Part shown: in pieces, positions 1-57,985 of the stretch
How the letters are laid out: every line of letters starts with the position of its first letter
Numbering within the stretch: the stretch's first letter is position 1
Origin: Streptomyces tsukubensis
Lineage (GTDB): Bacteria; Actinomycetota; Actinomycetes; Streptomycetales; Streptomycetaceae
Assembly: GCF_009296025.1 (NCBI RefSeq)
Contig: NZ_CP045178.1
Location: 2,914,001 to 2,978,000, forward strand
Direction: 5' to 3'
DNA: 64,000 nucleotides
Position numbers and translations under genes: made by a program
The notes under the pieces: model-generated
The model's input: only the letters and a program-made list of their open reading frames with translations
Databases searched by the model: none
What the model was told of the DNA's origin: nothing

Positions 1-3000
1 TCCTCCACTCCCCCGGGGTCAGCTTGGCCTTCGTTCCCGCAGGCCTCTTGCGCTTCTGGCCCGGAGCCTGCGCGCCCGTCTCCTGTGGGGTCTCCGTCTC
101 CCGCACCGGCAGCAACTCGACGTAGGTGGTGCCGTCCTCGTGCTGTCCGTAGCCGATCTCGCCGGTCCAGTACCACACCTGCCGGCCGGTTTCACGGGCG
201 TAGTCCTGCGCCGCCTTGGCCGTCACCCCTCCGTAGAGAAGGGCCGTGTTCGTCTCCGAGGGAGCGGTCATCCCTTCCTCCCACGACGTGCGCACCTGCG
301 CCAGGACCGTCGATTCCTCCACGACGTGCGGGCCGTCGGCAAGGTGCTCGACCAGTTGGCCATGGGAGTTCCGGTCGAGGGCGTAGACGGTGATGCCCTT
401 GACGGGCTTGCGCTCGTAGCTTCCGGAAGCCGACCTGTAGAGCTTCGTCGCCAGGCGGGTCTTGTCCTTGTCGACACCGACCCACGGCGGGTCCACCCAC
501 TCCGGGGAGGTCCCACCCGCGTTGTCAGGCGTGTGCAGCCTCATCCGCATCATGTCGATGCCCTTGGGCGCCGCTGTGCCACTCCAGTTGTATCCGTGCA
601 CCGCCAGGCCACCGTCGGCCTGCTCCCACGTCATCGTGTACGGATTGCGGGCCTCCAGGTCGAACGCGATCAGCTCCGCCGGGCGGATACCGCGTCCGCT
701 CGCGTAGGCCTGGGCCACCACCTCCACGATGGCCGCGTGCGGGTCGGCGAACGGCAAGCCGGTGTTGCGCACCTTGCCGGCCCAGCTCTGCTTCTGCGCG
801 TCCGGCAGTTCCGCCGCCATGGTCTCGCCGGCCACGAGAGCCCACAGGGTCCGAGCGAGGTGCAGGGGCGTCACGACACGGTCGGCGGGCATCCTGAGAA
901 CGGAGCGGACCACCCGGTCTCCCCCGATGAGCCGGCTGAGTCCGGCGCGTACGTTCCGGGTGGCCAGCCACGCCCCCATGCCCGCCGGGCCGAGAGCCAC
1001 CTCGCCGTTCAGCGCCTTCGACGCCAGGACGAGGACATTGTTGTAGGTGCCACTGTTCAGGGGGGCGCCGTCAAGGACCCTGTGATCAGGCCGCATCCAC
1101 GCCTCGTTGCCGTAGGCGGCCTGGCTCCACATCTCCATCCGGAAGGGGATGAACCGGAAGTTCGGGTCGGCTGCACGCAGCTGTTCAAGCGCGCCGATCC
1201 CCCGCAGCTTCTGCTCGTACGTGGGGTCGTCCTCGACCTCGTCGCCGAAGACGTGACGCAGCGCCCGCACCAGTATCAGCGTGCGCTCAAGGGTCGCCAC
1301 CGGCACCGGCTCCGGGCTGCTGTGAAGTCCCGTCCTCCGGGCCAGCTCCGCCAGTTCCGGCTCCAGCGGTTCCGGGCGGAGGACGACCGCGCTGCCCAGC
1401 ACTTCCCCGGCGCCGGTCTTGTGCCGGAGGTCATCGTTCGACAGCGCCATCGACCTGGTGAAGCCAAGGACCCTCTTCCGGGTCGCGTTGGCGACCTCCC
1501 GTGCGAGGGACAGCTCCCTCAACGGGTCGTCGGCACGCCGTATCGGCGCGGTGGAGAGCTGCGGCGCGTCCGGGTCACCGGATGCTGCGCTGTAGCAGCT
1601 GGGCAGGACGATCAGATCCTCGTCGAGGAGGTCCAGAACCTCGGGCAGGTTCGCGATGGCCCGAGCGCCGGAGTGGTTGTCCAGCGACTTCCACGAGCCG
1701 TCCTTCAGCGCGAACTTCGTGTACCCGGGGTGCCCGTGCACGAAGATCTCCAGGCGCCTGCGCGCGTACTCGGGCGGCAGCTTCTCGTAGCCCAACGGCT
1801 CCGCCTGCGATCCCTGCCAGCTGTCGAGGGTGTGCTGGATGTAGCCGTTCCTCCGGTACCGCCGCTGCTGGTGCTCCCGCAGCCGCCCCTGGTCGGAGTC
1901 GGGTACGAGGCTGACCCCGCGCAGCGTCCGGCTGTCCGGGGAGACGATCGGCCTGCGGAAGATGTCGCTGTCGCGGAACCCCGTGCCGTCGCGTGCGGTC
2001 CTGGGCTGGTCGGCGCGGCGGCGCGTGGTCCTCGGCTCGACCGGCACCCAGGCACCGATCGGCGACTCGGGGTCCGTGTCGATCAGGGCCGGGACGTACC
2101 CGCCCTGGGCCTCGTCAAGGCGCATGACGCCCCGGCCGCTGGAGATCCACACCTTCCTGCCGAGCCGGTCGGCCACCGCCCACGCCAGATTCATGTTGAG
2201 CAGGCCCCCGTACGGGGTCACCAGCCTCACAGGAACGTCCCTCGGCAGCCGCGCCAGATTCTGGTCGGCCTCCAGCAGCGCGGCCAGCGCGGCCCCGTCC
2301 ATGACCGTCCGGCCCGTCACCGGATCACGGTGGGCTGCCATGTCGGGGTGGTCCCGCAACGGCTGGCCGGGGTCTGCTCCGTTCAGCTTGTCGCTCTCGA
2401 ACAGCAGCCCGAGGAGGGTGGCTTCGGGGAGCACGACGTCATACGAGATCCCGAACGACGTGGGGCCCGACTCCACCAGTGTTTCGTTCTTCTGCTCATC
2501 CCACGCGTACTGGTTCGACCGGCCAGGGACGACGTGGGTGATGAGCTGCTCGGTCATGTTCCGCCCGCTTACCGTTCCCTTCGCGTCCTTGAGGACGGTC
2601 AGGCCGGACAGCAGCGGGTGGGTGGCCGGGTTCACCGCCGGGGCGGGGCTCTGCGCGGCGGCCTCGGCCTGTGCGGCGGCGGCCGTGCCGGGGACCGGCG
2701 TTCCGTGGACGAAGACCGACGTGTCCCCGGCGGGCGGCGCGTACATGGTCGACAGCTCCGTCGCCGCCATGTCGCCCGCCGCGTACGCCGACACGGCGCC
2801 GTACGACAGCGCCGGCGTGTCCTGGACCGGCCGCGGGGTGGCGGGCCCGCCCGTGGAGTCCGAGCCATCGCCGGAGTCGTCGGTCAGGCCCGGCCCGGAA
2901 CCGGCGTCGGAGTCGGAGTCGTTGACCAGCGTGGTTTCGGAGTCGGAGTCGGCGATCAGTGTGGAGTCGGAGTCCGACTCGGAGTCGAGATCGAAAGCGG

Positions 3001-6000
3001 AGTCGAGGTCGAGGAAGGGTGCGGGAGCGGGGGCGGCCCCACCGGCCGGGCTGGGCGCAGGACCGGCCACCACATCCGCGTCGAAATCATAGAACCCCAT
3101 GGCCACGAAATCGGAATCCTCCGACGTCGCCGACGTGTGACCCGAATCGCTCTCGGACGCCGAATCCGCGTAACCGGACTCAGAGCTGGACTCGGACTCG
3201 GAGCCGGAGCTGTCGGACGGGCCTGACGCGGGGCCGGCTTCCGTGGCCGTGTCGCCGGGCTCGGAGCCGCTGCTCAGCAGAGTGCCAGAGTCCGACGCAT
3301 CGGCCAGGGTGGCCTGGGACCCGAAGCTGTGCGACGACGCCGAGGAGACCGTGTCACGCTCGAACAGCGAGTCCCCGTCAGGGGACCCGGAGCTGGTGTC
3401 CGAGTCGGGGTCGGAGTCCGAGTCGGAGTCGGAGTCCGAGCCGTCCTCCCGCGCGGTTTCGTAGTCGGACTCGTAGTCGGACTCGTAGTCGGACACGTCG
3501 GCCAGGAAGCCCGAGTCATCCGAATCGAATCCGGACTCGGAACCGGACTCGGAGCCGGACTCGGAGCCGGAGACGTGGCCGGACCCGGATTCAACGCCCG
3601 CGGCCGCCGCCCGTGCCGCAGGCCTCGCGGGCTCGACCCCGAAGGCGAAGTCGGACGCCGCGGGCTCGCTCCCGAAGGCCACGGAGGGCTCGGCGGACGG
3701 GGCGGCGGAGGCGGTGGTGGGCCCGGCGGAGGCGGTGGTGGGCTCGGCGGACGCGGTGGTGGGCCCGGCCGCGGGCACCCGCTCCTCGTCGGAAGCCGTC
3801 GACTGCGTACCCGCGTCGTCCGTACGCACGTCCTCGGGACGGTCGTCGTTCACGGTCGCGCGCGGGTCGGCGCCGAAGAACGTCTCGACCGCGTCCACGC
3901 GTGACGGCGGAGTGGACGCGGCGACGGTCGAGGGCGAAGCCGCCGAGGAGGCCGAGGACGCACGGGGCGTCGTCGCGGGCGACGGCAGCGACGGTGGCCG
4001 CGTGTCTGCCTGGTCCTCGTTGTCGGGGAGGGGAGTGGTGCCGGCCCACCGGCCGTAGTACGTACCCGTACGCGGCAGCCACAGCAGGTACACGTCCCGG
4101 CCGTTGCGCGGTCCTGCTTCCCACTGGCTGCCGTTGGGCAGCACCACGTGCAGGCGTACGCCGAGCACCGCGGCGGTTGCCGCGAGGGTCAGCCAGTCCG
4201 TGCGGTCCGAGTCCCCGCCGTCGCGGAGTTCCGCGATGTCCTCGGTGGGCTGACGGCCGGTCACCGACTGCCCGGACGCGGCCCCGATCGGCACGGTGAG
4301 CCCGTCGAGCAACGGCCAGTACAGCGCGGACCGCTCCTCGCCGAGTTCCCCTTCGAGGCGGTCGGCGACATGGCTGCGCAGCTCCTGCGGGCTGGCGGGG
4401 AGAGTTCGTCCGACGAGCCTCATGGCCTCGGCCGAGGCGACCGTGTTGAGCGCGTGCGTCACGGCCTCGCCGTTCGCGAGCACGTAGACCGGCTCAAGGA
4501 GCAGACGGGTCAGGAAGACCGCCTGGGCGCCGCTGATGACCGGCCTGGTGTCATCGGTGGCGGTGCTCGCGGCCGTCGCACCCTCGGCCGGGCGGCCGGT
4601 GCCGGAGGTGCCACCCGCGCCTGCCACGCTCTCCACGTCCCTCCTACCGCCCCCGACAGGCGTGAGGAAGGTACGGACGGCGCCAACCATGTTGGCCACG
4701 AAGGACGGGCCTTCGGCGGCCGGACGGTTGACGGGGGCCGAGTTGAGGGTCCTTGGCGGCAGTTCCGTCAGGCCGGTGCCCTCCGCCTCACGGGCGGTGT
4801 GCAGAGTGCCCGCGGAAGCGTGTATTTGCTCCCAGGCCTGCCGCTGTTCCCGCGCGTGGGTCTGTAGCCGCTGCTGGGCCTCGGCGAGTTCGTTGTCGAT
4901 CTCCGGGAGCCGGGCGGCGGCCGCGTCCCCGGCGGCGACGATCCGCTGCCGCTCGGCGGCCTCGTCCGTCTCCGTGTCCGACGCGTCCTGCGCGCGGGCC
5001 GCCTCGCCGTCCGCGATGTCCTGCGCCACGACGGGGCGCAGCGCTGCGAGCCAGCCCATGTCGACGGCGGCCGCGTCCATGGCGGTCGTCGCCGCGTCGT
5101 ACGTGCCCGCGGCGCCCGCGAGTGTCGCGGCGTCGGTGCGGGTGGCGTCCGTGGTGTCAAAGAGCGATCCGTCCGGGGCGAACCGCCAGTAGCGGACCCT
5201 GCCGGGGACCCGTACGGCCAGTTCGACGGGGCGCCGCGCGAGGACGGCGGCGCGGGAGGAGGCGTAGAGGGCGCGGGCCAGTTCCTCGGTGGCGGTCGCC
5301 TCCGCCGGGGCGAGCCAGAGCTGGATGAGCCGGTCCCCGTCGGCGAAGCCGGCGGCCAGCGTCTTCGGCAGGTTGTCGAGCGCGTCGGGGCGCAGCTCCA
5401 TCAGACTCGGTGAGTTGCCTTCGGCCAGCAGCCTCGGCAGGTCGTAGACCTGGGGGCCGATACGCGGGGCGAGCACCCCGTGGCCGAACAGGTCGCGTTC
5501 GAAGATCCGGAGGTCGGCGGTGCCGGTGACGGCCCGCTCTCCCCCGGAGCCGCGGACCTTGAGCACCACGCGCGTCCGTACCTGGTGGATGCGGGTGCCG
5601 CGGGCGCCCTTGGGCTCGGCGGCGTTGCCGACCCTGAGCCGGTCGCGCTGACCGCCCGAGACGGAGCCGGACTGCTGGGTGCTGGTGGGCGCCTGGGAGA
5701 TGAAAGGGGAGGTGGTCTGGCCGAGGTACCTGTTCTCGTCGTCCCCGCTGAGGGTCCCCTGGAGCGACACCCCGGAGGCGTAGCCCTCGGAGAAGGACGT
5801 GCCGAAGGTGCGGACGGGCAGTCCCAGGGCGTCCACGCCGAGGTCACCGTCGCCCTCTTCCCTGGCGGGCAGCGGGTCGCTCAGGTGCACCTCGATCGCG
5901 GCTGCCATGGCGTCATCGGCGGGCCAGGAGCCCGGCAGGCCAGGTGTCGGGCTCTGCGTCACGCCGGAAGGACGCAGGGCGATCTCGCCCGCCCTGATCA

Positions 6001-9000
6001 GCTCGCCCAGACGTACGGCCAAGGTCTCGTCGGACGGCCTGGCCTCGTGTCCCCACGTGTCGGCGAGCTCCGGTGCCACCTCCCGCAGTGCCTGTATCAA
6101 CTCCTCGTTGGCGTCGAACCCTTCCACCACCACCGGGTCGGTGGGGACCAGCCGCGGTACGGAGGAGAGCTCGGGCTCCTTCAGGAGCAGCGCGGGACGC
6201 CGGGGGCTCTGCTCCCTGACGGGCGCGGCGGTGTCCGAGGCGCTGAAGCGCAGGTCCACCAGTGCGGGCACGGAGACGGTGTGCGCCTCGCGCCTGCCCA
6301 GGATGTCCCGTACCCACTTGTCCAGCCAGTCGGCCCCCGTGGACCAGGCGCTCTCGCCCCGGGCGTCCTGCCAGCTGAGCAGGGCGCCCCGGATGATGCC
6401 GCCGGGCACCTCCAGTGGCCAGTCCGTGGGCGGGACGGTCCACGACTTGACCGAGGCGACGAGGTCGTAGGGGAGCGCGTCGAAGTCGGTGGCGTTCTCG
6501 GTGCGGCTCCAGTTCCTGTCGTTGGTGGAGGAGGACTGCTCCTCCACCCACTTCAGGTACCTGCCCAGCGAGAAGGAGGGCCCGAAGCGGTCAAGCCGCT
6601 TGTCGTTGGTCGAGCGCGCGAAGCGCTCGATCATGTTCGAGGAGAACTCGTACGCACTCGTGGCCGACTTGCTCGCGCTCGTGCCGTGCGGGACGTAGGA
6701 GGTGACCTGCTCAAGGCCCGCGCCGGCCCCGGCGGGACGTCCGCGGAACGCGCGCAGCTCCGTCGTGTCCATGCGCAGTACGGCGGCGAGGTCGACCTCC
6801 ACCAGCCGGGCGCCGCCCGCGGTGTTGTAGCGGAAGGTCAGCGGGGGCAGTCCTGCCGCGCCACGGCCGGGCAGGGCACGCAGCCCCACCGTCGAGGTGG
6901 CGTTGGCGACCCATTCCCTGACCCCGGGCACGTAGGAGGCGTTGCCCGGTTCCATGGCGCCGGGGGCCTCGGCCTCCAGCAGCTTCTCCAGCTCCTTGCG
7001 GAGCCTGTCGCGCACCTCGTACCGGCCCGCGGCCGGTTCCTCAGCAGACGCGCCCGACCCTGCTCCGGCTCCCTGCCCCTCGGCGGCGGGGGCAGGCCTG
7101 GGAGCGGCGGGCGCGGGGGCGTGGGCGGGACCGCTGAACTGCTTCACGGACAGCACGCCGGCCAGGCCGAGCTGCCCGGTGCGTACGAACCTGTCGGGCG
7201 GCGGCAGGGTCGGCTCGGGACGCGGGACCACGGGCAGCCCGTCGACGGCGCTGAACCACTTCTCGAACCGGATCAGGTGGCTGTTGCCGACGAAGAAGGC
7301 AAGCCCCCGCTCCACGTCGATGGCGAGGGTGGCCGGGGGCAGCGCGCCCGCGCCCAGTGCGTTGCCGACCGTCTCGCCGAGGCTGTTGACGACGTCGTTG
7401 CGCCTCCCGAGCCGCAGGGTGGCCAGGAGTGTCACCTTGCCGTCCTGGAGCTGGAGTTCACCCATCTCCACGGGGGTGCGGTTGGTCAGGGTACTGCTGC
7501 TCCCCGACTGCGAGACCGCGTTGCCGCGTGTATGGGCGAACCTGGCGCTCGGGTTGAATCGCGGCCCCACCGGCTGCGTGCCGTCCGGCCTCGGGCCCGG
7601 AGGCGTCTGAAGGAGCATCCCGCCGGCCGAGATCTGCTGCTGGCTTCCCCGGCCCTCCTGGACGCTCGACGTGTCGATGGCGGAGAGGTCGTTCTCCATG
7701 TAGGCGTTGCCGCTGGCGCGCTGGTCGGGGGTGTACGCGTAGCCCTGGATCTCCAGGGACCACTCCAGGTCGCTCCAGCGTCCCGTCAGCGGCGCCCCTT
7801 CGATGACCCAGCCGCCGTTGAGGATCTGCGGCGCACGCGCGGTCAGGTTCCCCACCGTCAGCTCGGCGGCCAGCTCCTTCTGGAGGAAGGTACCCAGGTC
7901 GTTCGGCGAGCCGCCGGTGAGCCAGCTCCCCAGCTTCTTCCTGCCCGTCTCGGCCCAGGAGGCGGGTCCTGAGCCCGTCCGCACCTCTTCGGCCAGCACA
8001 CCGCGTACGAGCTGAGGTACCGCCTCTTGTAGCGCGCCGGCCACGTGGAGGCCGTCCACGTCGGCGTCGTCCGGCAACCGGAACAGTCCGGGCCGCGGGT
8101 TGCCCTGGGCGTCGACCAGGCCCAGCCGTACGGTGTCGTCCTCGGCGGAGCCGTCGGTGACGGGCCGGCGGATCACCGGCTCGGGAATGGGGGTCCTCAC
8201 CTGTCCCGGCTCGACCGTGTGCAGGTGGGAGACCATCAGCGTGACCGTGCCGCGTCCGACGCGCTCCGGCTGGTGGTCGGCGGACGACGGCTCCGCGACG
8301 GCCGATGACAGCCCCGCTTCGAGCTGCGCGGGCGTGGGCGCGTCGGTCAGCGCGAGCGGGGGCCGTGCCGGGTCCTCCCTGTCGAACCGGTGCACGGGTG
8401 TGTCGGAGTCGCCCTCGAAGAGGTCCAGTTCGAAGGTGGCGGGGACCTCGAAGCGGTGGCTGCCGTTCTCGGTGCCCATCGTGTACTGGGTGGCGCCGGT
8501 CCCGCCCCCGAGGGACTTCGACCCCGACCTCTGGTACGGCTTGTTGGTGTAGTCGACGAGGTCCATGATCGCGGGGAACTCGGAGTCGGGGAGCAGCGGC
8601 CCACCGGTCAGCCCCCAACTCGCCTCACCGGACCAGCCCTTGCGGCGCGCGACGTTCGACATCACGTCGACGTACGCCTGGGTGAAGACGCCCGGCACCA
8701 CCTTGGCGTGGCGCGCGGGCCTCTCGTGGTCGCGTGCGACCTTCAGCCGCAGCCGCACCGTGCGGACGCCTGTCTTGTACGGCAGCTCGAAGAAGACGGG
8801 GTGGCCGCCGTCGCTGGCGTCGGCGAGTGTCGTGGCCGTCCCCAGCCACGACCTGACCCACTCCAGCTTCTTCAGGTTCTCCAACCGCGCCTTGACGACC
8901 GACGCCGAGGGGCCGGTCACGATGTCGTGGAACGTGGGCGAGGGGGCTTCCGCCGGGGGCAGGAAGCCGTTCTCGCGCAGCCAGCGCTCCGCACGGTCGT

Positions 9001-12000
9001 ACAGCCGCTCGGTGCCGGTGGTCCGCTCGGGGACCGCGCTCAGCCCGATGCCTCGCAGCTCCTCCAGACGCTGCGGCAGCTCACGCCGTTCCTCGTCGCT
9101 GGGCTCGTGTCCGCGTACGACGTCCTTCTGCGGAAGCCGCAGCAGCGCGCCGCCGGACCTCGGACCGAACTCCCCGGTCGTCTCCCCGCCCTGGGCCTTG
9201 ATCAGGGTGGCTTCGTACACGACGGTGGCGGGGGTGACCAGATTGCTGGTCGGGGTGTACATGGCCACCATGAACTGGGCGGAGTTGCCCCGCTCCAGCG
9301 TGTCGCTCCTGGAGAGGCCGAGGCCGACCTTGCCGCCGACGTTGCCGCCCAGTGCCTCCCACCCACCGGCGTGGCCCTCGCTGCGGTCGCTGGTGAAGGT
9401 CGTGGCCCCGCTGAAGTCCCAGCCGAGGCCGTTGGCGAACGACATGCTGTGGTTGGTGCTGATGTTGCGGATGTACCAGTTCTCCAGGAAGAACCGGCCC
9501 GCCGGGCTCATCGCCTCAGGACCACCGGGGGTGAGACGTGCCTTGAGCCGGAGCACGCCGACGGCGTTCCCCTTCTTGTCCAGCAGGGTGGGCGAGTGGA
9601 CGCCTCGGTCGGTCTGGGCGGCAGCGGTTCCGCGCAGCACCCGCTCGGAGATGAAGGTCCTCAGTTCGTCGCGCGACGCGTCGCTGAGCAGACTCAGCTC
9701 GGGGAAGTCGGCCGACGCGAGGATGTCCTCCAGCAGTTGGGAGTGGTCGGGGGCCGACTCCATGCCCCACAGCGGGGCGTCGTCGAGCGACATCGGCTCG
9801 GGCAGGCCCTCGGTGTCCCCGGTGCCGAACGCGCGGTGCTCGGGGAACCAGACCGTGACCGGGCCGTGCTTCCGCTCGGGGGACCACTCCGGCGGCCGGC
9901 CGTCGGTCCCGGTGATCTCCCGCACCTGCCACCGGCCGTCGAACTCCAGCGCGTACGCGGAGTCGAAGGCGCGCATCATCACATTGGTCTGCTGCCCGTG
10001 CTCGACCGAGGCCGACTGCGAGCGCCCGTGGTGCGTGAGCGAGAGGCTGGGGTACGCGGCGCCGAAGAAGAGCGGACCGCCCACCATGTTCCAGAACACG
10101 AGCGCCGTGTTGGTGAGCCCGCGCGAGGTGCCCGAGGAGACCGCGCCGGCGGAGCCCGTCGGCCCGAATACGCTCTGCTCCACCTTCTTGTCGGGGCGCG
10201 CGCCCGCGTGCTTCCCGTCCATCTCGGAGAGCCTGGCGTCGGTCAGCCGCATCCGGACCGCCACGGTCCGTGGCCGCCCGTCGACCTCCACCGTGACCTG
10301 GTGCCCCGCGGCGGTGCGGAAGTCGTGGCGGTTGGTGTTGAACTCGGCCGCGCTGAGCCGCTGGGCGAGCTGCGCCCTGACGGCCTGCCCGGCCTCGCTC
10401 CCGGGGGCCAGTCCCAGCGTCTCGATGACCTGCGTGTGCAGACCGTCGAGGACGGAGTCGGGCAGCGGCTCGAAGAGTACGAGCCCGACCTGACCGTCGT
10501 GGTTCGTGCCGTAGTCGCGCGCGTGGGGCGAGAGCGGCCCCTCGGTCGGGTCGGTCGGGCCCTCCTCGGCGGCTATGTCCTCACGGTCGTGCTGGGCGAC
10601 GGGGGCGTTGCCGAGCGTCGACGCGTTGGACGGGGCGATGGTCGCGGCGGCGGTCGAGATGCCGTTGGCGAACGAGGGCACCTCGTCCGAGCCGGTGGCG
10701 CCGGTCGCGGGCGTGGCGTGCCCGCCCGCGTCGGACGGCTCCGCCTCGGAGGGCGGGGCGGTCACCGTCACGGAGGGCACGGGCAGGCCGTATGCCGTCG
10801 TGGGGGACTGCTCGCCGTCGGTGGGTTCGTCCTCGGAGCGCTCGTCCTCGGAGCGTTCGTCCTCGGTCGGTGCGGCGGAGGAGGGCCGGTCGTCGGAGGG
10901 CGCCCCGGCGGAGGGCCGGTGCTCGGAGGGCTCCGTGGAGGGCAGCTCGCCCTCGGTCAGCTCCTCTTCGGACGTCACCGCGCCCGAGGTCACCGCACCG
11001 GGCACCACCGCGGCGGGCCGCTCCAGGTCGGACAGCTCGATGGCGGTGGCCGCCGCGCCGGACGGCGCGGTGCCGGGCTCCACCGCGCCGGTCGGTGTGG
11101 CGCCGGACCCCACCGCGCCGGTCGGTGTGGCGCCCTTCACCGTGGCCACGGACGACCCGTCGGACAACTCCCCTTCGGACAGCCCGTCCTCGGGCAGTGC
11201 GTCGGCGGACAACTCATCGTCGGCGAGCCCGTACTCCGAACGCTCACCGTCGGCGAGCCCGTACTCCGAACGCTCATCGTCGGCGAGCCCGTACTCCGAA
11301 CGCTCATCGTCGGCGAGCCCGTACTCCGAACGCTCATCGTCGGCGAGCCCGTACTCCGAACGCTCATCGTCGGCGAGCCCGTACTCCGAACGCTCGTCGT
11401 CGGCGAGCCCGTGTTCGGACCGCTCGCCGTCGGACAGCTGCTTGCCGGACGCCACCGTCCCCATCTGCTCCGCGTCGGAGCCCTCGCCGTCGACAGACCC
11501 CTGGCCCGCCACAGAGCCCCCGCCGTCGACAGGGGCCTGGCCCGCCACGGAGCCCTGGCCCGGCACAGAGCTCTCGCCCCGGGCGGGGCTGCGTCCACCG
11601 TCCGTCGTGTCGTCGAGCAGCGGCAACGGCTGCCACGGGGACGGCACTCCGGTCTCCCCGGGCGCGGAAGCCGGTGCGTGGTCCCGACGCGGGATCAGCG
11701 CCTTGAACGTGCCGTCGTCCAGCAGCAGTCGTACGTCCCGGCGGTCCTCGCGCGGCAACCGGCCGGCGGTGTCGGCGTCGAAGGCGTCGGGCCGGTAGAC
11801 CACGTCGGCCTGGCCGGGGATCACGACATGTACGTCGACGCCGTGCAGGAGGGCGAAGAGCTGCGGTATGTAGTCGGAGGCCGCGTTGTCGTACCCGGCC
11901 TTCTCCAGACCGGCCACGGCCACGCCGCCGCCGCGCACCAGCTGGCGGGCCAGCAGCGACGCCCGCTGCTCCGGGGACAGGTGCACGTTGTGGTGCAACA

Positions 12001-21000: not shown

Positions 21001-24000
21001 GGCCCTCGGACGGGCCGAGGTCCGCGAAGCGGTTCGGTCCGCCCAGGTAGGGAACGGGATCGATGGGCCGCAGGTAGGGGTCGAGCTCGATCGACAGGAA
21101 GCTGGAGCCCTCGTACAACGGCCTGTCGCTCACCCGGCCGTACGCGCCGTCGACCCAGTAGACGCGCCCGTTGAAGTTCAGCCCGTTGACGGAGTGGATG
21201 TTGCCGTTGGGGCGCTGGAAGTCGACGATCGCGGCTGATCCGTGGCCGCCGCGGAGCAGCCGCCTCTCGACGGAGGCCCAGGCTTCGGCGGACCGCTCCC
21301 TGTCACTCAGCATGTCCTGGATGTGATGCATGCGCCAACTGGTGTCCAGCCAGTCCGCCGTGGTCTGCCTGTTGTTCTGCTCCAGCAGGAAGTGGGGCCT
21401 GGCCGACTGGGTCGGCGCCGCCACGATCGGACGCCCGTGCCAGCTCACCAGGACACTCCGGCTCGCGTCCTCGCAGTTGTTCTGCCGCGTGGGCTGCGAG
21501 GAGGCTCCCGGGTTGATGAACCGCAGCCACTCCGCGGCACCGGCACTGGTGCCGTGGCGGTTGGTCGGGATGGCACGGTTCATCCGCCGGACCAGCCCGG
21601 CCCTGTCGAACGAACCACCCCGGGGGTCGGGGAACCGCGTGAAACGGCCCCCGCCGTCCCGCGGGAACACCGCCTCCAACTGCCGCTGCTCATGCGGCTG
21701 GGCCCGGTCGAGACCGCTCGTCGCCCGCCCGTAGGGGCGGACGTCCTCCAGCGTGTACAGCGGGGAGCGGCGTACGGGGGAGACGGGGGCGGCGAAGTCG
21801 GTTACCTCGGTGATCAGTTCACCCACCCGGGAGCGCTCGGCCGTGAGCCATCCCGCCAAAGGCTCGCCGGGCGGGTTGGCATAGGTGATGAGGGAGAACG
21901 GTTCCCCCTCGGCCATCCGGTGCAAGCGGACGGGACCGTCGTAGGTGTGCGTCCTGGAGCCGGTGAGCTCGGAGTGTTCCTGTCCGACCTTCCCGCCGAT
22001 ACCGGGCCCCAAGAAGACGACCGGCTCGTCGAGACTCGATGCGGCGAGAACCGGGTCGACGGCCAGCAGTTCCCGCAACTCGTCGTGCGGCACAAAGACC
22101 CCGCCGGGCCTGCCCGGCAGCCGCAGGATGACCCCGTCGGCCCCTGCGGGTTCTCCCTCCGCCACCAGTACGTACGGCTCGGCGTCAAGCGGCCAGGGCG
22201 GCTGCCGCACTGCCCCCTGCTGGCCGTGGGGGACGTCGTAGACCCTGTCGAGGCGGACCGGGCCGTCCACCGGCACGCTCCCGTAGTTCCTCCCGAGCTT
22301 GTACCCCTCCTTGGCGGTCAGCGTGACCGACGGGTCGAACGCGCCCAGGGTCTCCAGGTGGAAGGCGCCCAGCACGGCGGGATCGGTGACGTCCCGGCGG
22401 GCCGCGATCGCGCGCACGGTCAGCTGGATCAGGTCAGCGTGCCAGGGCCATTCCCCGCTGTCGCCCCCCGGCCCCGGTACGGGGGGATGCAGCACCTTGT
22501 GAGCCAGGCCCTGCTTGTCCGCGTGGGCTTCGAGGTACAGGTTGGCGCTGACGGCCGCCCACAGAGCGCGGCCGATCGCCCGCCTCCCCACCGGGGAACC
22601 GGCGGGCAGCCGAAGCATGTCCCGTACCCGGTCCTTGACGATCTCGCCCTGCGGGGCCAGCACCCTCATTGAACGCCGGAAGGCGAAGCCCTTGGCCAAC
22701 GCGGAGATGTCCGCGTCAGGATTGCCCGTGAGCAGAGCAGTCGCGTCGGACAGCACCACCATGTAGTGCTGCGGCTGCGGGACCTTGTGCGTCGAGTCGT
22801 ATCCGCTGTACTTGCGGGCGAGGGCGGTCCACATGTCCATCTGGAAAACAGTGGAATCGCCCAGCAGCGGATCGTATTGACGCAGCGCCTCCAGTGCGCC
22901 CATCCCCTCCGCCGCCGATTTCCACTCCGGCCTGTCCTCGATGTCCGTGCCGAACACCAGGCGCAGCGCCCTGAGCAGCCGCACCGCGGTCTCGCGGGCC
23001 TGGTCGGTGATCGGCCCGCCCAGGTCAAGGCTGAACGCCTTCACCAGCCTGTCCAGTCGCGCACCGCCCGGCTCGGGGCGGAACTCCCGGTATTCCGGGA
23101 CCCTGTCGCGCGAGACGCTCAGTACGTGGTCGAAAGAGCCGTCAGCGTTATGGAGGTGGAAGCTCGCGGGCACGTTGGGGGCGAAGACCGTGAGGCCGCT
23201 GTGGTTGGCGACGTGCTGCGCGACAGATACCTGTGCCAGCGGGTCCACGACCTCCGGCACCCGCTGACCGTGGTCGACAGTGCGTTTCGGATCGCCCGCC
23301 TCCGCCGTGGTGCACGACGCCAGCAGAAGACCGTAGTCAGGGGGGAGTTCCCCCCGAGCCATCTTCTCCTTTACGGCGGCTATCTCTTGGTGCCCGCCGA
23401 TGAAACGGCCGGCCTCCTCACTGGTCAGTCGCTCGACGCCGCCGTCGCGGAGCGGGACATCCACACCGCCGGCGGTGCCATGCATGAGCCACGTGAAGAC
23501 CGCGGGCATCGGCCGGGTCGGTACGCGGCCGACCAGCTCCGCCCTGTCGCCCGCCGACATGACCCAGAACTGGGTGTGTGTGTTCTTGCCGCTGTGGTTG
23601 GCCGGATCAGTGCGGCCACGTCGGTCATCGTCCCGCTCCATCACCAGTAGGCCGGAACGATGGTGGTCCTCGTCCCCGATGGGTATGGCCGGTACGTCGC
23701 TGTCCTGGAACAGCCGGCCGTCCATGGACCGGTGCGTACGGTCGCCGACCGGGGCGCGCAGTGGTTCGAAGGGCAGGAAATTCCCGTACGGGAGACGGTC
23801 TGCCCGATCCATCAGAGTGGGGAGAGGCGCACCGGACGACGAGGGGTGCAAGGTGATGGCGTGCGTCGGCGCCCACACGGTGCGGCCCAGCTTCTCGGCC
23901 AGTTCATGGACGATGAAGCTGCTGCCGATCTCCGGTATCAGCAGTACGACGTCCACGTCGGGGGGCAGCGACGCGAGCTTTTCGTCACTGAGCAGGGTAT

Positions 24001-27000
24001 CGATGAACTGGCTGCCGGAGAGCTCCCCCGCCGCGTGGGTCCGCACCACGTTCTTGCCGGTGTCGTATTCCGCCGCCACGGGATACGCGGTCTCGGCCCA
24101 CGGCGCCCGGTGCTGCCAAACCTTCCGGGGGCGGTCCCAGCCCTCTCGTTTCTTGAACAGTGCCACCTGGCCCATATCCAGGCCGTTCAGCGAGCCCTCG
24201 GTCCAGTTCAGCCCGTACGTTTCCGGCCGAGTCCCGCCTTGGCCGTCCGCGACCGCACGTACCAGGCGCTGGTCCTCGGCGAGCAACTGGTTTTGGCGTT
24301 CCGGGGAGAGGGGGGCCGCGAGCTCCGGCTCCGTGCTCGGGTTCTCCCCGGGCAAGGTGAACGCGCCGGGAGCGGCGGCGCTGTGCCACATCGCCGCACG
24401 CGGGTTCCCGACCCGGCTCGCACCGGGGGACGCCGGTCGGTCCGTGTCGTACGCCGTGGATGGGGTGGGCCCGGTGGCGTCCGTGGCCGCCCCGGACGTG
24501 GGGGTGAGCGGGGTGTCCGGCTCGGCTGTGGGGCCCGGCTCGTCGGCGGGCTTGTCCGAGAGTGCGGCTTGGTCCTCGGAGAGCGCCGACGCGGAAGTGT
24601 CCGACCCGGACGTGCCCGACTCGAAAGCGGCGGACTCGGACGTGCCCGACCCGGACGTGCCCGACCCGAAAGCGGCGGACTCGGACGTGACCGACCCGGA
24701 CGTGCCCGACCCGAAAGCGGCGGACTCGGACGTGCCCGACCCGGACGTGCCCGATCCGTCGGGGTCGACCGGCTCACCAGGGGCGATCGGCGCGCCCTCG
24801 GTACCGGGTTCGGCGCCCCCGCCCAGCTGCGAGGCCAGGTACGCGTCGGCGTGCCTGACGCGCACCTCGCGCATCTGCTCCCGCACCCAGCGGGCCACGC
24901 GCGGGTCGGAGGTGGTCGCCCTGCCTGGCTCCCGCGCGGCGAGGGAGTCGCCCAGCTCCCGGTAGGCGAGGTCGCGGGTGTCGGTGACGGCGTGCAGCGC
25001 GTCCAGGTCGCGGTCCAGACGGCCCTGGAGGGCCGAGACCTCGTCCGGCCCCTTCCCCTGCGCCGACTTCGCGTACTCGTCCATGAGCCCCTGCTGCTGC
25101 TCCTGGTGCCAGGCGGCGACCTCGCGGTGCCAAGTGGCGCGCGGCGGCCGGGTGACGGTCTGCTGCTCCAGGTCCCGGTACACGCCTGCCAGCCGCTCGG
25201 CATGCTGGCGCAGGTTCCAGGCGGCGGCCCGGGTGTTCTCGCGCAGCCGGCTCCAGTCGGGGGCGGAGGCGGCGTAGTCGGCTGCGAAATGTTCCCGCAG
25301 GGACTCCAGTCCCTCGCGGTACCAGGTGTCGGCTCCCAGGCCCCACCCGTGGCCGGGGTGCCCGAGATTCATCGCCCCCTCCCGCGTGTGGATCAGGAGG
25401 TGCGCGTCGAAGGTGGCGCGGATCCTGACGTCCGCGAGCCATTCGCGGAAGGCTTCCACGAAACGGGGCCTGAACTCCGCGACGAGGTCGTCCTTCACCG
25501 ACCCGGCCACGGCGCCGTGTTCCTGGGCCGCCGTCGCCCAGGCCGCACGGAAGGCCTGCCGGAGCCGGTCGGCGACGGGGGAGTCGAGGAAGTGCCCGTG
25601 GTTGTCGCTGTCGAGCCGCCAGTGGTTCCCGGGACGGACGAAGTCGCTCTCGAACGTCTCGTCCGCCCCGGCCCGCTGTCCCAGGTCCTCGAACCGGCCG
25701 TTCAGCTCACCGATGAGACCGGCCCGCATCCCGTCGGTCCGCTCCGGTACGCCCCCGGATGCGTACTGCCCTCCGTGGAGCGCGGTCCAGATGTCGGCGA
25801 ACCGCTCGCGCAGCTGGGCCATTTCCTGCCGGAGGCCCGCAGCGGCCCGGTGCGTACGGATGCCCGGGACGAACTCGTCCACCGGGTCGCCCGACCTGGG
25901 CCCCACCTGCCGGGAGTAGCCGCGCAACTCCGGGTGGCCGGAGAGGTGCTGTGCGAACTCACGGTGTGCGGCCTCACGCTGCGGCACGTCCTCCCGCATG
26001 CCCGCCAGGTACGCGCCCGCGCTGTCCGTCAGGGCGCCATTGACCCCGACCAGCGTCGGCGCGTCGTCGGCGGCCGGCTGCGGGGTCGTGAACGCCTCGT
26101 CCCGCGCCTCCTCCACGTAGGGCTGGTGGGGGCGGGGCTGGGACGGGGGTTCGGGCTGGGGCTCGGACCGCGGCTGAGACGGGGACTGGGACTGGGGCCG
26201 CTCCGGGTGGAGCGGCCGGGCGTCCTGGCCCGCGCCCGCCGGGGACACGCCGGGGCCGTCCGCCAGGGACTCGCCGACACCAGCTGCCGACGGCTCACCG
26301 ACACCCTCCCCCGCAGGCAGCGTCGCCGCACCCTCCGCGACCGGCTGCGGCGCCGACAGGGACTCGTCCGGCACCTCTTCCACGTACGGCTGGTGGGGGC
26401 GGGACCGGGGCCGCTCCGGGTGGAGCGGCCGGGCGTCCTGGCCCGCGCCCGCCGGGGACACGCCGGGGCCGTCCGCCAGGGACTCGCCGACACCAGCTGC
26501 CGACGGCTCACCGACACCCTCCCCCGCAGGCAGCGTCGCCGCACCCTCCGCGACCGGCTGCGGCGCCGACAGGGACTCGTCCGGCACCTCTTCCACGTAC
26601 GGCTGGTGGGAGGGCGGCGCCGGCCGCTGCGGGTCCGCTGTCACGCTCAGGTGCTCGAAGTCGAGGTTCCAGCGCGGTGCCGGGCGGGGCCGCTGCCCGG
26701 TCGGCGGCGCGTTCCTCGGCGCCGCCGGTGCGTCGGCCCGTGCCTCGGCCGTCTCCCGCGCCGCGACGGCTGTCAGGTTCTGTCCCTGAACCGGTGTCTC
26801 CCCGGTCGCCGCGTCGGAGGCGGCGGGGGCAGGGGTGTTGACCGGCGCGGCGGGGGCAGGGGCCTTGGCCGAACCGGAGGCCGCGGGGGCTCCGGCAGGT
26901 GCGGGGGCGGGGGCGGCGGGAGCCGACGTGGGGGGCGACACCCGAAGGTCGTGCAGCGCGTCGACGAAGCGTGCCTTCACGGCCTCGACGGCCCGCTGGC

Positions 27001-30000
27001 CCCCGGCCTCGCGGGCCGTCTGGATCTCCGCGCCCCACCGCAGCGCCTCGCCCTCGGGCATCCCCGCCTTGCGCCCCATATTGGTGACGTACAGCCTGTC
27101 GAAACCGTCCGACAGTGCGGCATCGCCCGACCGCGCGGAACCGTCCGGCAGTGCCTGCGCCGTGGGCGCCGCGCCGGGGCTCCGCAGGTTGTGCAGGTGC
27201 TCGCTGAAATCGCGCGTCACCTTGTCGGCGGCGGGCATGCCCCGCGCACCGCGGAACTTGTCCGCCCAGCTCGCCGTCTCGGCCTCGGACAGACCGGCTT
27301 CGCGGCCCCTGACCTCCATGAAATCCAGCACACGGTCGTCCATCGACCTGGCCGCTGGGGCGGATGCGGGACTCATCGCGCCGGGGCTGCGTATCTCGTG
27401 CAGGCGCTCGGCGAAATCGCGCGTCACCTGGTTGGCGGCTGCCATGTTGCCCGCACCGCGGAACTTGTCCGCCCAGTCGAGCGCCTCGGCCTCGGACAGA
27501 CCGGCTTCCCGGCCCCGGTCCAGCATGAAGTGCAGCACATGGCTGTCGGTCGTCGGGGCCGCGGGATCGGGTGCGGGACGCGTCGCGGAAGTACTCCGCA
27601 TCTCGTGCAGACGCTCGGCGAAATCGCTCGTCACCTTGTTGGCGGCGGGCATGCCCTCCGCACCGAGGAGCTTGTTCGTCCAGTCCTGCACCTCACGCGG
27701 GGACATCCCCGCGGAATGGCCCCTGTCCATCATGTAGTGCAGTACGTGGTCGCCCCCCGGTTCGGGCGCCACAGAAGTGGTCGCGGGCGGCTTCCGCAGG
27801 TTGAGCAGGTGCTCGCTGAACGCGTTCTTCAGATGGTTGACCGCGCGATCGTTCTCCGCCTGTCGGATCTTGTGCGCCCAGTCGAGCACCTCCGCCTCTG
27901 ACATCCCGGCGGCGCGCCCGCGGTCCAGCACCATGTCCACGTCGTGGGTGCTCGCCACGGGCTGTCGCTGGCCCACCGCGTCGGGCGAGCGGTCAAGCAC
28001 CACGGGCGGCGCGTGCGTGGACGTGTCGGCTCCGGGCGCGCCCCTGCCGCCGTTCCGCAGATCGGCGATGAAGTCCCCGAACCGGGCGTCGACGGCGTGC
28101 AGTTGCTCCATGTTCCCCTTGAGGAACGCCTGTTCGTATTCGGCGCGCCATTGGGCCGCCTCTGCCGGAAGGGCGCCGTTGTCCACGGCGTGCTCGGCGA
28201 ACGCGTCCGCCCGCTCCGCGGCCCTCTCCTCGTTGGTCGGCTCGTCGCCGCCCGTACCCCGGCCGCCGCCCGGCCGGCTCTCCTCGGTCTCCGCGACGGG
28301 CTTCGGGCGTTCCTCCGTCACCACCGCGACGTCCACCCCGCGGCTCGTCCCCGCGCCGCCGTCCGGCGTGGAGTCGGAGGGCTGCCCGCCGTCCGGCGTG
28401 GACTTGGCGGGCTCCCCGCCGTCCGGCGTGGACTCGGAGGAGCGCCCGCCGCCCGCGCCGTCCGCGCCGCCCGTCGGCTCGTCGCCGGGACCGCGTCCGG
28501 GCGCGCCCGGCTTGGGGCCACCGCTTCCGGACGAGGCGCCGCCCGGACCTGTCGGCCCCGACTCGCCCTGGCTGTCGATGAATTCCCGGATGGTGAGGGG
28601 CCCACTGCCCCCTGCGGGCGAGCCTTCGCTCCCACGCGCCCCGTCGCCGAGGTCCCCACGCGCCCCGTCGCCGAGGTCCCCACGCGCTCCGTCGCCGAGG
28701 TTCCCACGCGTACCGGCGCCGAGTCCCCCGTCCTCGCCCGCGAAGGTGGCCGGTGGCCTCGGTTCGTTCGCCAGCGGGGGGATGTCCCGTACCGGCACGC
28801 CCGGCCGCAGGCTGTCCAGGCGCTGGTTCCACGCGCTCAGGAGCGTGGTGTAACCCTTGCCGTCCGCCGAGTGCCCCACCGCGTCGAACTGCCCACGCCA
28901 GAGCGCGAACTCGGCCGGTGCCATGCCGTGCACCGAGCCCCAGTCGGCCAGCACGGAGGGCATACGTGCCACGGGCCCCGCTGCGCCGTCCGGGTTCACG
29001 CCAGGTGCGGGTGACTCCGGCTGCGGGGTCTCGGCGAGTCCGCGCGTCCGGGCCGGACCGCGGGTCTCGATCTCGGTGAGGTGCTGGTCGAATCCGTCGT
29101 TGAGCGCCCGTACGCCGGGGCTGTCCTCCGCCTTGATCGCGGAGACGTACTTCGCCCCCCAGGCGGACGCGTCGGGCGGCGTCATGCCGTGGTCGCGCCC
29201 GTACGCGGTGATCTCCGCGCCGCGCTCCTCGGGCCCCATCTCGCCGAGGCGCTGGAGACGCTGGTCCCAGGCTTCATGGAACTCGCGGACCCGGCCGCCG
29301 TTGCCGGAGCTGTGGGCTTCGACGGCTTGGCCGCGGACGTCGTCGATCTCGTGCTGGGTCAGCCCGGCCTCGTGGGCCTGCTGTGCGACCTCCTCGCCCC
29401 AGTGCCGCGGGGGCAGGGCGTTCGGGTCGCTGCTGCGGATCTCGTGCAGGCGCGCGTCCCAGCGCGTCTCCAGGTCGTGGACGCCGGGTCGGTCGCCGGC
29501 CCGGTGCGCCTTGATCAGACTCTGCGACCAGCCGGCCGTCTCCTCCCCCGACATGCCGTGGTCACGCGCGTACGTGGACCAGGTGTCCGCCCAGCGCTCG
29601 GGCGGGACGGGCAGCGCCTCGCCCTTGAGCTGCGGCGAGTGCTTCTTGGCCGTCGTGTCCCAGAGGTCGTGGAACTCGGAGACCTTGACCGGGTCGCCGG
29701 AGGCGTGGGCCTTCTCCGCCGCCGCACGCCATTCGGCGATCTTCTTCGGCGTCATCCCCAGGTGGGAGGCCTCGCTGGCGATCTGGTCGCCCCAGCCCTT
29801 GGGCTTGAGTGGCAGCGGCTCGCCCTTGGACGGTGCGAACTGCTTCTGCGCCGCGTCCCAGGAGTCGTGGAACTCGGAGACCTTGTCCAGGTCGCCGGAG
29901 CCGTGGGCCTTCTCCGCCTCCGCACGCCAGTGGGTGATCTCGTTGGGCGGCATTCCCTGCCTGAACGCCTCGGTGGCGATCTTGTCGCCCCAGTGCGAGG

Positions 30001-33000
30001 GGGGCAGGTCCAGGCTCCAGTTATTGGTCCTGATATCGCCCAGGCGCTCGACCAGGCTGCCTTCCAGGCTCCGTACGACACCGCGGTCGCCCGTCTCGTG
30101 CGCGGTCTTGATCAGGGCGCCGAAGTCGTCCGCCTCCCGACCCGACATGCCCTGCTCGCGGGCGTACGAGCCCCACGCGTCCGCCCAGCGCTTCGGCGTG
30201 ATGGGCAGCCCCCCGCCCCTGACGGGCGGGCGTGCCGATGTGACCTCGCCCCACGCGTCGTGGAAGTCGCCGATGGCCTTCTGGTCGGTCCCGGCGTGCA
30301 CGTCGTCGGCCGCGTTCCGCCACTCGGCGATCTCGGGCGGCGACATCCCCTTGCGGAACCCCTCGACCACCACCTCGTCGCCCCAGCGGCCCGGCGAGCG
30401 GACGTCCAACGCCATGTCGGAGGCGCCGAAGTCGTGGCCCCGCTGCACCAGCCCCTCTTCGAGGTTGCTGACGACGATGTCGTTACCGCGCTCGTGGGCC
30501 TGGTGGATCAGGGAAGACCAGTGGTTGGCCTCCGGGTGGCCGAGACCGCGCTCCCGACCGTACGAGTACCAGGCCTCGGCCCACTCGTCCGAGGTGAGAC
30601 GGGTATCGCCGGCCCCGCGGCCCGCGACGGGGAGGTACCCCTCCTTGCCGCTCGCCTGCTGCCAGGTGTTGTGGAAACCCCGCACCGTGCTGAGGTCGCC
30701 CGACGCGTGGGCCTTGATGGCGGCCGCCCGCCAGCCGGCGACCTCTTCCAGTCCCATACCGCGCTGGTAGGCCGCGTCGGCGACCGCGTTCCCCCACCGC
30801 CCCGCGGGCAGGTCGACGGCCAGGGCGTCGGCGCGGGGGTCCCGCGCCGTGAACAGCTCGGCGAAGCCCGCGCGGCCGTCCCGCGCACCGACCGTCCCCG
30901 ACGTGGTGGACGTACCGGGCGCCTCGGACGCACCGGATCGCTCGGGCGCGCGCTCGGACAGCCCGGTCAGGGCTCCCTCGGACTCGTCGTGCGCGCTGCC
31001 CGTCCCGCTGATGTCCTGGTTCCCGCGGGCGCCGTCGGCCTCCGACACCCCGTACGGGTCGGGGCCGTACGAGTCCGGCCGCTCGATTCCGAGCTCGTCC
31101 AGACGGGAGCCGAAGCTCGACTTCAGGTGGGCGACGCGCACCGGGTCGTCGGCGCGGCGGGCCTGGTCGATCTCCCAGCCCCAGTCCCACGCCTCGTGGG
31201 AGCCCATGCCCCGTTCCTCGGCGTACTCGGCCAGTTCCTCGGGCTGCTCCGGCCTGGGGCGGCCCTCCTGGCCACCCCGAACGGAGCGGGTGTCGGGACC
31301 GGACTTGGAGTCACGGGCGAGCCCGTCACCGAAGTGCCCGACGTTCACCAGCTCGGAGTTGGCCGCGCCCTGCCGCTCCTCGGGATACAGCTCCCGGCCC
31401 TTGCGCATCGGCCCCATGAGGGCCTGGCTGTCGCTCTCGGACACACCTTCCCGCACCGGCCCGGAGGAAGTGCCGCCCGCCTCGGACCGCTCCCCGGCGT
31501 GCGTGGTCGCGGCCCTGTCGCCGGGCGCGACCGCCCTTTCGCCGGGCGCGACCGCCTTGTCCCCGGGCGCGACCGCGCCGCCCTCCACCGGCTCCGAGGC
31601 GCCCTCACGCACCGGCCCGGAGGCGGAAGTGGTGTCCTGCCCGGACGTGCCGACCAACTCGTCCGACGCGGCGCCGGAGTCCCCGTCGCGGGACGGCGCG
31701 GACGGAGCGCGCCCCTCCCCCGCGGCGGCGACCGGCCCCGACGAGCCGGAGCCGGCCTCCGGACTCTCCTGGGCCTCGTCCTCGGCGCCGGAACGGTTGT
31801 TCCGCTCGATCTCGGCATTCTCCGCGGCCGGACGGTGGCGGTCACCGAGACTCATCTGATGGTTGGGGGCTGCCGTGTGGTCCAGGCCGCTCAACGGCAC
31901 CGACTCGGCGTCCTTCACCAGCCCGTCGAACGCGCCAGCCGCACCGTCCTCACGAGGCGCGACCGTACCCTGCGCGGGGTCGGCGACGCCCTCCCGCACG
32001 GGGCCGGAGGAGGTACCGCCCTCGTCGGGCCGCGCCCCGGCGGCCGTATCCGCCGCGCCGTCTTCCCCGCGCGCGACCGCGCCGCCCTCGACCTGGTCCG
32101 CGTCACGCGCGACCGGGCTGTAATCGGACGGGTGGGACGTGTCCTGCCTGTCCTCGGGGCGCAGGGGATGGCTCTTGCCGCGCAGCGGATCGTGTATGAG
32201 CCCGTATTCGACCTTCTCGGACCCCGCGGCGCCCTGCTGCTCCTCGGGACGCAGGGGCTGCCGCTCCTCGGGACGCAGGGGCCGCAGCTCCCCGGGGGCC
32301 ACCTCACGGCCACCGGTCGCGCCGCTCCCCTTCGGGCCGGGGACGCCCTTGCCCATCGGACCCATGAGGGCCTGGCGCTCCGCGGGGGAGTACTCGCGTC
32401 CGCCGCGCTCGACCGGAGCGTAGTCGGAGCCCCACCCGCCCTGCTGCTCCTCGGGACGCAGCGGCTGCCGCTCCTCGGGACGCAGGGGCCGCAGCTCCCC
32501 GGGGGCCACCTCACGGCCACCGGTCGCACCGCCCTCGCCCGGCGCGACCGTGCCGCGCTCCCCGAGGTCGGAGACACCCTCCCGTACCGGCCCCGAAGAG
32601 GTGGAACCCTCCCCGTCGTGACGGGTGACGGCGGACTCCCCCTCGCGCACGGCGGGGGCGTTGGTGTCGTCCGGCGTCACATCGCGGTCAGGGGCGGCGG
32701 GTGCGTTCTTCCGGCCGACCGCGTTCTCCGTCTGCTTCCCGGCGTTCTGGCTCTCGCCGCGCGAAGGCCCGACGCTCTTGCCGGCCACCTGGCCGGGGGC
32801 ATCCTGCGACGCGGAGGAGGAAGGCTGCCGCTGCCCCGCGGAGAGCCCGTTGCCACCGGGCTGCTGGACCGGCGTGTCCGCCGCGGACTTGGCGGTCGGC
32901 GGCGCGGATACGGCCGCGCTGTCATGGCCGGTCCGCACGGGCGCCGGTACGTCGTCCTGGCCCCTGGCCGGGTTGAGGGGCCCGCTGCCGCCCGGCTGCT

Positions 33001-35569: not shown

Positions 35570-35717
35570 GGTCCGGTACCTCCTCACATCTCCGCGTACG
35601 ACGCGGCCCACACAGCCGACATGATGATCATCAGGACTTCACGGGGAGCACCAGCGGTTCCATGACCCCTGGTGACCCCGCTGTCCGAGCAGCGACCAGC
35701 CCTCCTGGTCCCGACTT

Positions 35718-39940: not shown

Positions 39941-40603
39941 CTAGTCCCGGTCGTAGTCGCTCTTTGAGTAGTCCGCGATGACGTCGTCGTCCTTGTCCTT
40001 CTGGTCCTTGACCGCGGCGGCGTGATCGTCGGGCGTGTTGACACCGCCGTAGTTCTCCATATAGGCGTCGATGTCGGGGCCGGTCTCCTGGTCGTGCCCG
40101 AAGCCGTTCTTCACCGCTCTGTCGTGCTTTTCCTCGTTGTCCTTGTCACCCTCCGAGTAGTCCGAAGCATAGTTCGCCGAAATAGCGGTCGTGACTCTGT
40201 CCAGCGAGTCCTTCGGAGCCGCCGGCTCCGCGTCGTCCAACTGCGGACCCAGCGCCGCGATCAGATCATCGAATCCCTTCGCAATGCCCTGTTCCGTGTT
40301 CGCGAAGTTGGACGCGGCCTGCTCAACGCCGTGCCCGACGGCGTTCAACGCGCCCTTTTCCGGCTCTTTTTCCGTCCCGAACGCCATATTGATGACGCGC
40401 GTCCACTCCGACGTCATGTGGTCGTACTCTTCCGACGTCTTCCCGGCCCAGTTGAGTTTGAGGCCGCCCAGCGTCTTGTTGATACGGTTGAGATGCCCAC
40501 TGACAGCCGTGATGCTCTGCTTGAGCTGTGTGGTCATTTCTTTCAACGCAGCCGGGTCCACCTCGATCTTGACACTGTCGTAACTTACCCAGTCGTCACT
40601 CAC
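39941..40603 (-). CDS. WXG100-family protein with acidic C-terminal extension
   Basis: 220 residues, GTG start at 40603. A helical hairpin with LNWAGKTSEEY (W52-A-G54) is the WXG100 signature. After about residue 120 an acidic tail rich in Asp, Lys and Ser follows (DKDNEEKHDR, KDQKDKDDDV), about twice the length of a normal Esx protein. Immediately upstream of eccC and the giant gene, it is a good candidate chaperone or co-secreted partner of the giant effector. The ribosome binding site is weak. Confidence 0.8.
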   Translation of the reverse strand: MSDDWVSYDSVKIEVDPAALKEMTTQLKQSITAVSGHLNRINKTLGGLKLNWAGKTSEEYDHMTSEWTRVINMAFGTEKEPEKGALNAVGHGVEQAASNFANTEQGIAKGFDDLIAALGPQLDDAEPAAPKDSLDRVTTAISANYASDYSEGDKDNEEKHDRAVKNGFGHDQETGPDIDAYMENYGGVNTPDDHAAAVKDQKDKDDDVIADYSKSDYDRD

Positions 40604-42337: not shown

Positions 42338-42497
42338 CGCGAGGAACCCCCCTTCACTCGGTGGCCGCGCCGACTCGCACCCGGTCGGCTGGATCGACAA
42401 AATCGGGACTTCGAGTCCCATGGACCCGATGAGGGAGGCGGACAGAGACGGCGAGCCGCGCTCACCGGCACCGCCCCACCGGACCCACCGCGCCCGC

Positions 42498-51138: not shown

Positions 51139-51276
51139 GGGTTCACCGTCGTGAACACCTCGGCGCTCCGGACGGGCCGGACTGCCGACGGCACCCCGCC
51201 CCACCTGCCCGCGTCGCGCCCCACGCCTCCCGGCCGCACAGTGGAACAGACCGCCGGAACGGGGAAGGAGCACGGC

Positions 51277-57870: not shown

Positions 57871-57985
57871 CAGCACAACTCCCATACATACCCGCACACT
57901 CAAGCGTAGACCGCAGTCGCCGACAGGCTTGTCAGGAAGACCTGCCGGCGGTCCGGCGCCGAGTGCGGGACGAGGAGGACGCAAA

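Follow-up and report, generated by a model that had tools for sequence, protein, structure and literature searches.

Can a single protein of almost 3 MDa be exported from a bacterial cell and cut into pieces? The question is raised by a giant gene of Streptomyces tsukubensis that lies next to a type VII secretion operon. The stretch of DNA analysed here (the window, 64,000 nucleotides) covers positions 2914001-2978000 in the 8.63 Mb, two-contig genome of this bacterium, and holds the operon and the 5′ part of the giant gene, both on the minus strand. On balance we lean, if slightly, towards one intact multidomain effector of ~2.94 MDa with a WXG100-like head, of the lonely-Cys/polymorphic-toxin kind, that would be a substrate of the adjoining type VII (ESX) system and would process itself.

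An unbroken gene of 27,581 codons

A minus-strand frame (2..35611) runs without a stop up to the left edge of the window. An earlier note, made from the window alone, had read in it an open frame of at least 11,856 codons starting at GTG 35569, with a product above 1 MDa, and had advised looking left of the window for the stop. The in-window part (1..35569) counts exactly 11,856 codons from this GTG and, in the flanking sequence that was fetched, the frame extends a further 47 kb to a TGA whose last base is position 2866824 of the genome (window coordinate -47176). The complete gene has 27,581 codons (27,595 when counted from GTG 35611, 14 codons earlier) and contains no N; the mass computed from the frame is ~2.94 MDa. 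Residues are numbered here from GTG 35569. The choice of this start in the note was sound: a ribosome-binding-like AGGAGG (35584-35579) precedes it by 9 bases, and the Streptomyces albus ortholog described below has no in-frame start codon earlier than the GTG aligned to it. Codon-position base composition predicts 389 in-frame stops in the giant gene and none is found before the terminal one; the two other sense frames carry 455 and 230 stops. Third-position GC is 0.86-0.94 in every 500-codon block of the window part, and a simple coding score applied across the region retained the giant frame as a single unit. These data confirm one intact, unbroken gene.

Searches across the genus covered 392 genomes, the S. 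tsukubensis genome included. The first 300 residues of the giant chain match 21 of them, and the best non-self match is a 23,264-codon open frame of Streptomyces albus subsp. albus NRRL B-1811 (NZ_JODR01000009.1), which measures 23,219 codons from its first start. The two chains share 48% identity in the head (153 columns), 50% at residues 23857-25008, 44% at 25039-26563 and 39% over the last 190 residues. With repeats counted, the alignments cover 68% of the giant chain and 69% of its S. albus ortholog; the number and the order of modules differ between them in the middle of the chain. The C-terminal 200 residues match two genomes of the 392 only, those of S. tsukubensis and S. albus, in both cases within the head-bearing frame, and the two ends of the chain therefore belong together. 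Judged by sequence, the giant gene is conserved as one frame in a second species, where it also adjoins a related type VII secretion operon.

Cysteine units and other parts of the chain

The giant chain holds 14 cysteines: five in lonely-Cys units, five in a second type of unit, one in a glutamine deamidase domain and three others (residues 16282, 25141 and 27412). The NCBIfam model NF012197 (lonely_Cys) scores 362.5, 302.5, 494.3 and 264.9 bits (cut-off 200) in four of the eight pieces in which the chain was scanned, and a profile built here finds five units. Unit 1 (residues 3783-4413; 22331..24223, minus strand) starts with a half devoid of His and Cys that is followed by the half carrying His4030 and Cys4086. 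Unit 2 (residues 11091-11644; 638..2299, minus strand) has His11278 and Cys11325, and units 3-5 (residues 12236-12715, 13258-13811 and 20518-21043, minus strand) lie left of the window. All 39 of the copies aligned, the two of the window among them, have the unit's His315 and Cys371; the name of the family suggests that an invariant single Cys is its trait. The unit is a tandem in which the copy without the His-Cys pair comes first and the His-Cys copy second, both clan CD-like. A confident structure model of one unit resembles clan CD cysteine peptidases (caspase/CPD-type) and its best structural matches, among those listed from the fold library, are the CPD autoprocessing domains (peptidase family C80) of large toxins. 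In the model, His315 (of a His-Gly pair) is near the end of strand 309-317 and Cys371 comes directly after strand 365-369. The units are thus predicted to have a clan CD-like fold with a His/Cys dyad at neighbouring strand ends, so that the lonely-Cys domain now has a fold prediction and an activity that can be put to the test. We take its His-to-Cys spacing to be similar to that of CPD/C80. Unlike CPD/C80, there are several units per chain, each in tandem with a half lacking His and Cys; a search of PDB sequences with the lonely-Cys profile returned three weak, unrelated rows only, and we know of no activating ligand for these units.

The units of the second type contain Cys 14299, 18456, 21959, 23223 and 24539, and this Cys is invariant in 11 of 11 aligned rows. 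Their profile matches the active half of the lonely-Cys unit (89%, E 2.1e-6) with the HG and Cys columns aligned, and found 0 matches among PDB sequences. The structure prediction reached a predicted local distance difference test (pLDDT) score of 38.6, so that the fold assignment depends on the profile match, which indicates that these units probably have a clan CD peptidase fold too. In eight giants examined together, a His is found 44-49 residues before the Cys for 34 of 64 cysteines (background 11-18%) and in 27 it is part of HG (background 1.3-2.4%); for the giant chain taken singly the two counts are 7 and 6 out of 14, and for the S. albus chain 4 and 3 out of 11.

The papain-fold glutamine deamidase PF15644 (residues 4697-4811, with Cys4699; 21137..21481, minus strand; E 5.8e-12, over the curated cut-off) is the sole family recognised besides the Cys units in the Pfam and NCBIfam scans of the eight pieces, from which a domain spanning a cut could escape. 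At E <= 0.01 the same scans gave no ADP-ribosyltransferase, OTU or lethal-factor-like domain, and the C-terminus of the chain has no Pfam or NCBIfam match. NCBIfam matches to XopAI and ClfA were far under cut-off and were dismissed; an OTU-type domain was also rejected, as a profile from three other giants matched no copy in the chain. OTU-protease-like motifs (GDG[ND]CLF or DGDCFF) were noticed in other giants (the S. tsukubensis frame with 8,263 codons or more, and genomes G029 and G373). The polymorphic-toxin trait thus appears to be present as a toxin-type enzymatic domain (PF15644), combined with a trafficking head that is only WXG100-like.

The N-terminal region has, behind the head, a hydrophobic Gly/Ala-rich stretch (residues 101-211; 34937..35269), with a single strongly hydrophobic segment at residues 99-129, followed by a Pro/Gly/Ala-rich low-complexity stretch (residues 276-1416; 31322..34744) and by 17 helical-looking repeats of ~64 residues (residues 1437-2883; 26921..31261), all on the minus strand. 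The ~64-residue repeat was not found in six other giants scanned. The earlier note had described recognisable domains recurring along the frame, and five of its six residue marks coincide with features: the WXG-like head (1), the helical-looking repeats from 1437 (1440), the His of lonely-Cys unit 1 (4030), the deamidase Cys4699 (4700) and the Cys of unit 2 (11325). No family matched at 10350.

Whether the lonely-Cys units cut bears directly on what the protein would do. In an alternative that we consider rather unlikely, yet the best placed of those weighed, the protein leaves the cell through the type VII system without any self-cutting, its units being structural or peptide-binding and the whole chain forming a surface stalk or array. 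The half without the His/Cys pair in each unit and the stalk-like appearance of the 17 repeats favour it, as do the caspase repeats without catalytic residues, possibly structural or peptide-binding, reported in the available part of PMC3482391. The invariance of His and Cys in all 39 copies, within chains that have only 0.45-0.70 Cys per 1000 residues, argues against it.

The WXG100-like head and the type VII secretion operon

The head (residues 1-106; 35252..35569, minus strand) is a WXG100-like helical hairpin with a WSG motif, as read from profile matches. When compared to structures, its profile matched EsxA and EsxB (3zbh, EsxA, E 0.0024), with engineered TPR proteins scoring higher through a short segment. 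Among eight homologous heads, six match PF25547 (WXG100_2) at E <= 1 (best 3.7e-7), three the WXG100 model and two PPE; the giant chain's own head reaches E 0.0061 with PF25547, below the cut-off. The W-x-G motif is found in 7/8 of these heads and is missing from that of S. albus. No match to the operon's own WXG100 proteins was obtained by hhalign, and a protein database search with the head gave none at E <= 0.001 among 469 scored candidates, whose length of only ~5,500-17,500 aa excludes the size of the ortholog. The head is therefore best described as weakly WXG100-like. The earlier note had placed a WXG100-like start 148 bases behind eccC; the spacing is exact (the eccC frame ends at 35718), the likeness less firm than it had been worded.

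The operon is encoded on the minus strand, directly upstream. EccC (35718..39812; 1,364 aa) combines EccCa and EccCb (TIGR03924, 769.5 bits; TIGR03925, 707.7 bits) and is 82% identical in S. albus. It is preceded by a WXG100 protein (39941..40603; below the NCBIfam cut-off and above Pfam's), a frame whose residues 192-276 match a WXG100 domain (41609..42571; its true start is probably downstream of 42571), a beta-helix protein with an EccA/SpoVK-type AAA ATPase domain (997-codon frame, 42498..45491; EccA model below cut-off, 76% in S. albus), an EccD-like membrane protein with a YukD domain (45634..46980; TIGR03920 87.8 bits for a cut-off of 94.95, PF19053 above cut-off, 74% in S. albus) and two further WXG100 proteins identified by family matches, one with YSEAE near its end (47109..47423) and one with WQG and YSESE (47514..47966). 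The order WXG-WXG-eccD-AAA-eccC is conserved in S. albus at 55-82% identity. There, relatives of the other two WXG100 frames (30% and 36%) sit between eccC and the giant gene, which starts 6.4 kb from eccC versus 148 bases here. On its downstream side the giant gene is followed immediately by two NF033532 genes ("type VII secretion system-associated protein"), which score 209.4 and 167.3 bits against a cut-off of 85. Both are conserved in S. albus, with 74% and 60% identity, and their products are candidate chaperone or immunity proteins. An NF033532 relative (58% identity over 108 residues) adjoins a 21,348-codon giant of the same genome. In genomes G190 and G256 a partial eccC match (71% and 60%) is followed at a distance of ~1.5 kb by the start of a homologous head, which belongs to a frame of 6,189 and 3,716 codons, respectively, and probably lies just behind eccC.

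NF012197 matches 91 of the 392 genus genomes, 54 of them above cut-off and S. tsukubensis among these; across the class it was found in 6/296 genomes, all Streptomyces (1/114 genera). The genus census scored two candidates per genome and missed both the present frame and the 23,219-codon one, so that its sizes are lower bounds; outside the S. tsukubensis genome, frames reach at least 17,018 codons among the matches listed. In 24 of 26 genomes picked by eye from the 54, mostly for their long contigs, the best lonely-Cys match has an eccC-like gene (E <= 1e-50) no more than 60 kb away, which strengthens the type VII link; the two exceptions have no eccC-like gene on the same contig. The S. tsukubensis genome has at least four further lonely-Cys giants, of 21,348, at least 8,263, 6,603 and 4,221 codons. 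An eccC is near the 21,348- and 6,603-codon ones; the flanking sequence fetched for the remaining two, one of which was cut at its left edge, contained none. The five giant frames, one of them incomplete, occupy at least 2.4% of the genome, a heavy genomic investment.

The type VII system encoded directly upstream most probably has the giant chain as its dedicated substrate. The head of the chain has no YxxxD/E export motif, and the loose pattern occurs in each of the operon's four WXG100 frames, a distribution that would agree with paired export of the kind known from ESX heterodimers. As to translation as a single polypeptide, export, order of transport, self-cleavage and target, we infer a course in which the WXG-like head would pair with one of the operon's WXG100 proteins that bears the YxxxD/E signal and the EccC ATPase would thread the chain, N-terminus leading. 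The repeats and low-complexity stretches would provide reach, and the five lonely-Cys units, probably with those of the second type, would cut their own chain outside the cell or in the target, releasing pieces such as the glutamine deamidase domain. The boldest version, that the ESX channel exports the uncut ~2.9 MDa chain and that some ten clan CD units then dismantle it into separate effectors, is offered as speculation that we judge improbable as a whole. To our knowledge, ~2.9 MDa far exceeds the known ESX substrates. Were export true, the size capacity of type VII secretion would be near 3 MDa, forcing a threading or self-cutting model. By analogy with the Streptomyces caspase-array proteins, the simplest reading would be an effector that is secreted and carries its own processing units.

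That the protein stays inside the cell, its gene sitting beside the type VII genes by coincidence, has a small probability in our estimate. It would account for the failure of the head profile to match the operon's WXG100 proteins directly, for the missing YxxxD/E and for the two other giants with no eccC in the stretches fetched; the WXG100_2 matches in six of eight homologous heads, the EsxA and EsxB matches, the eccC linkage in 24/26 genomes and the NF033532 neighbours argue against it. Less probable still is a polyprotein cut inside the producer, of which only pieces of ordinary size would pass the channel: arrays of peptidase-like units make such cutting possible and the transport problem would disappear, whereas the WXG-like head would be left on the N-terminal piece alone, the Pfam and NCBIfam scans having found no other WXG domain in the chain. 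An assembly artefact or a frame opened by chance, as GC-rich DNA does (one antisense frame over the giant gene is open for 1,985 codons), is rejected on the 389 expected and zero observed stops, the codon-position signal and the 23,219-codon ortholog of an independent genome, to which the identity extends at the protein level.

Known giants and further observations

Giant Streptomyces toxins have been described, the longest named in the available part of a 2012 survey being SACTE_5178 with 13,652 aa (PMC3482391). Type VII delivery of caspase-domain toxins was proposed there, as was, in general terms, built-in processing for the Streptomyces caspase-array proteins. Those giants are, like the present one, actinobacterial chains that exceed 10,000 aa and combine several enzymatic domains. 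In a Streptomyces toxin of that text, caspase-like domains form arrays and part of them lack catalytic residues; these domains and the lonely-Cys units found here may be the same domain. As far as that part of the survey goes, the present chain differs by having twice the longest length, a WXG100-like head directly behind eccC, an internal deamidase and, in the scans given above, no match to an ADP-ribosyltransferase, OTU or lethal-factor-like domain. The giant gene is a larger, WXG-headed, EccC-adjacent form of these already described toxins. Both NF012197 and NF033532, represented here by the units in the chain and by the downstream pair, are curated NCBI families whose entries give names only; the tandem clan CD-like halves were derived here. 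A text search of the available literature found no paper under "lonely Cys", "lonely Cys domain" or NF012197, and none on the giant gene. It is not the largest bacterial gene, because an Omnitrophota frame of 39,678 aa, reported with 42 transmembrane helices, is known (PMC10066038). Such frames, most with few annotated domains, likewise run unbroken over tens of thousands of codons in bacteria; they belong to an unrelated phylum, and the available part of that paper mentions no type VII operon.

Two of the other giants of S. tsukubensis deserve description. The 21,348-codon one (contig 2, 4803658-4867704) has 15 Cys, an N-terminus that is not WXG-like by eye, and an eccC relative ~9 kb upstream on the opposite strand. 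The 6,603-codon one (contig 2, 2783873-2803684) has a head homologous to the one studied here and is located 63 kb to the left of the giant gene, inside a second type VII cluster (eccC 56%, AAA 44% and eccD 38% identity). Downstream of the giant gene there is also a gene for a ricin-type lectin protein with a membrane-like segment (L009:9669-10667, minus strand), a 40% relative of which is near the 21,348-codon giant. A RamC/LanC-type lanthipeptide synthetase gene and an ABC transporter gene (L009:3991-9485) are found left of the giant gene. In the window, a gene with a LigD 3′-phosphoesterase domain (51151-51948, plus strand) adjoins a gene for an HTH regulator, and on the right side a gene for a LacI-type regulator adjoins a frame with a solute-binding protein domain (56597-59317).
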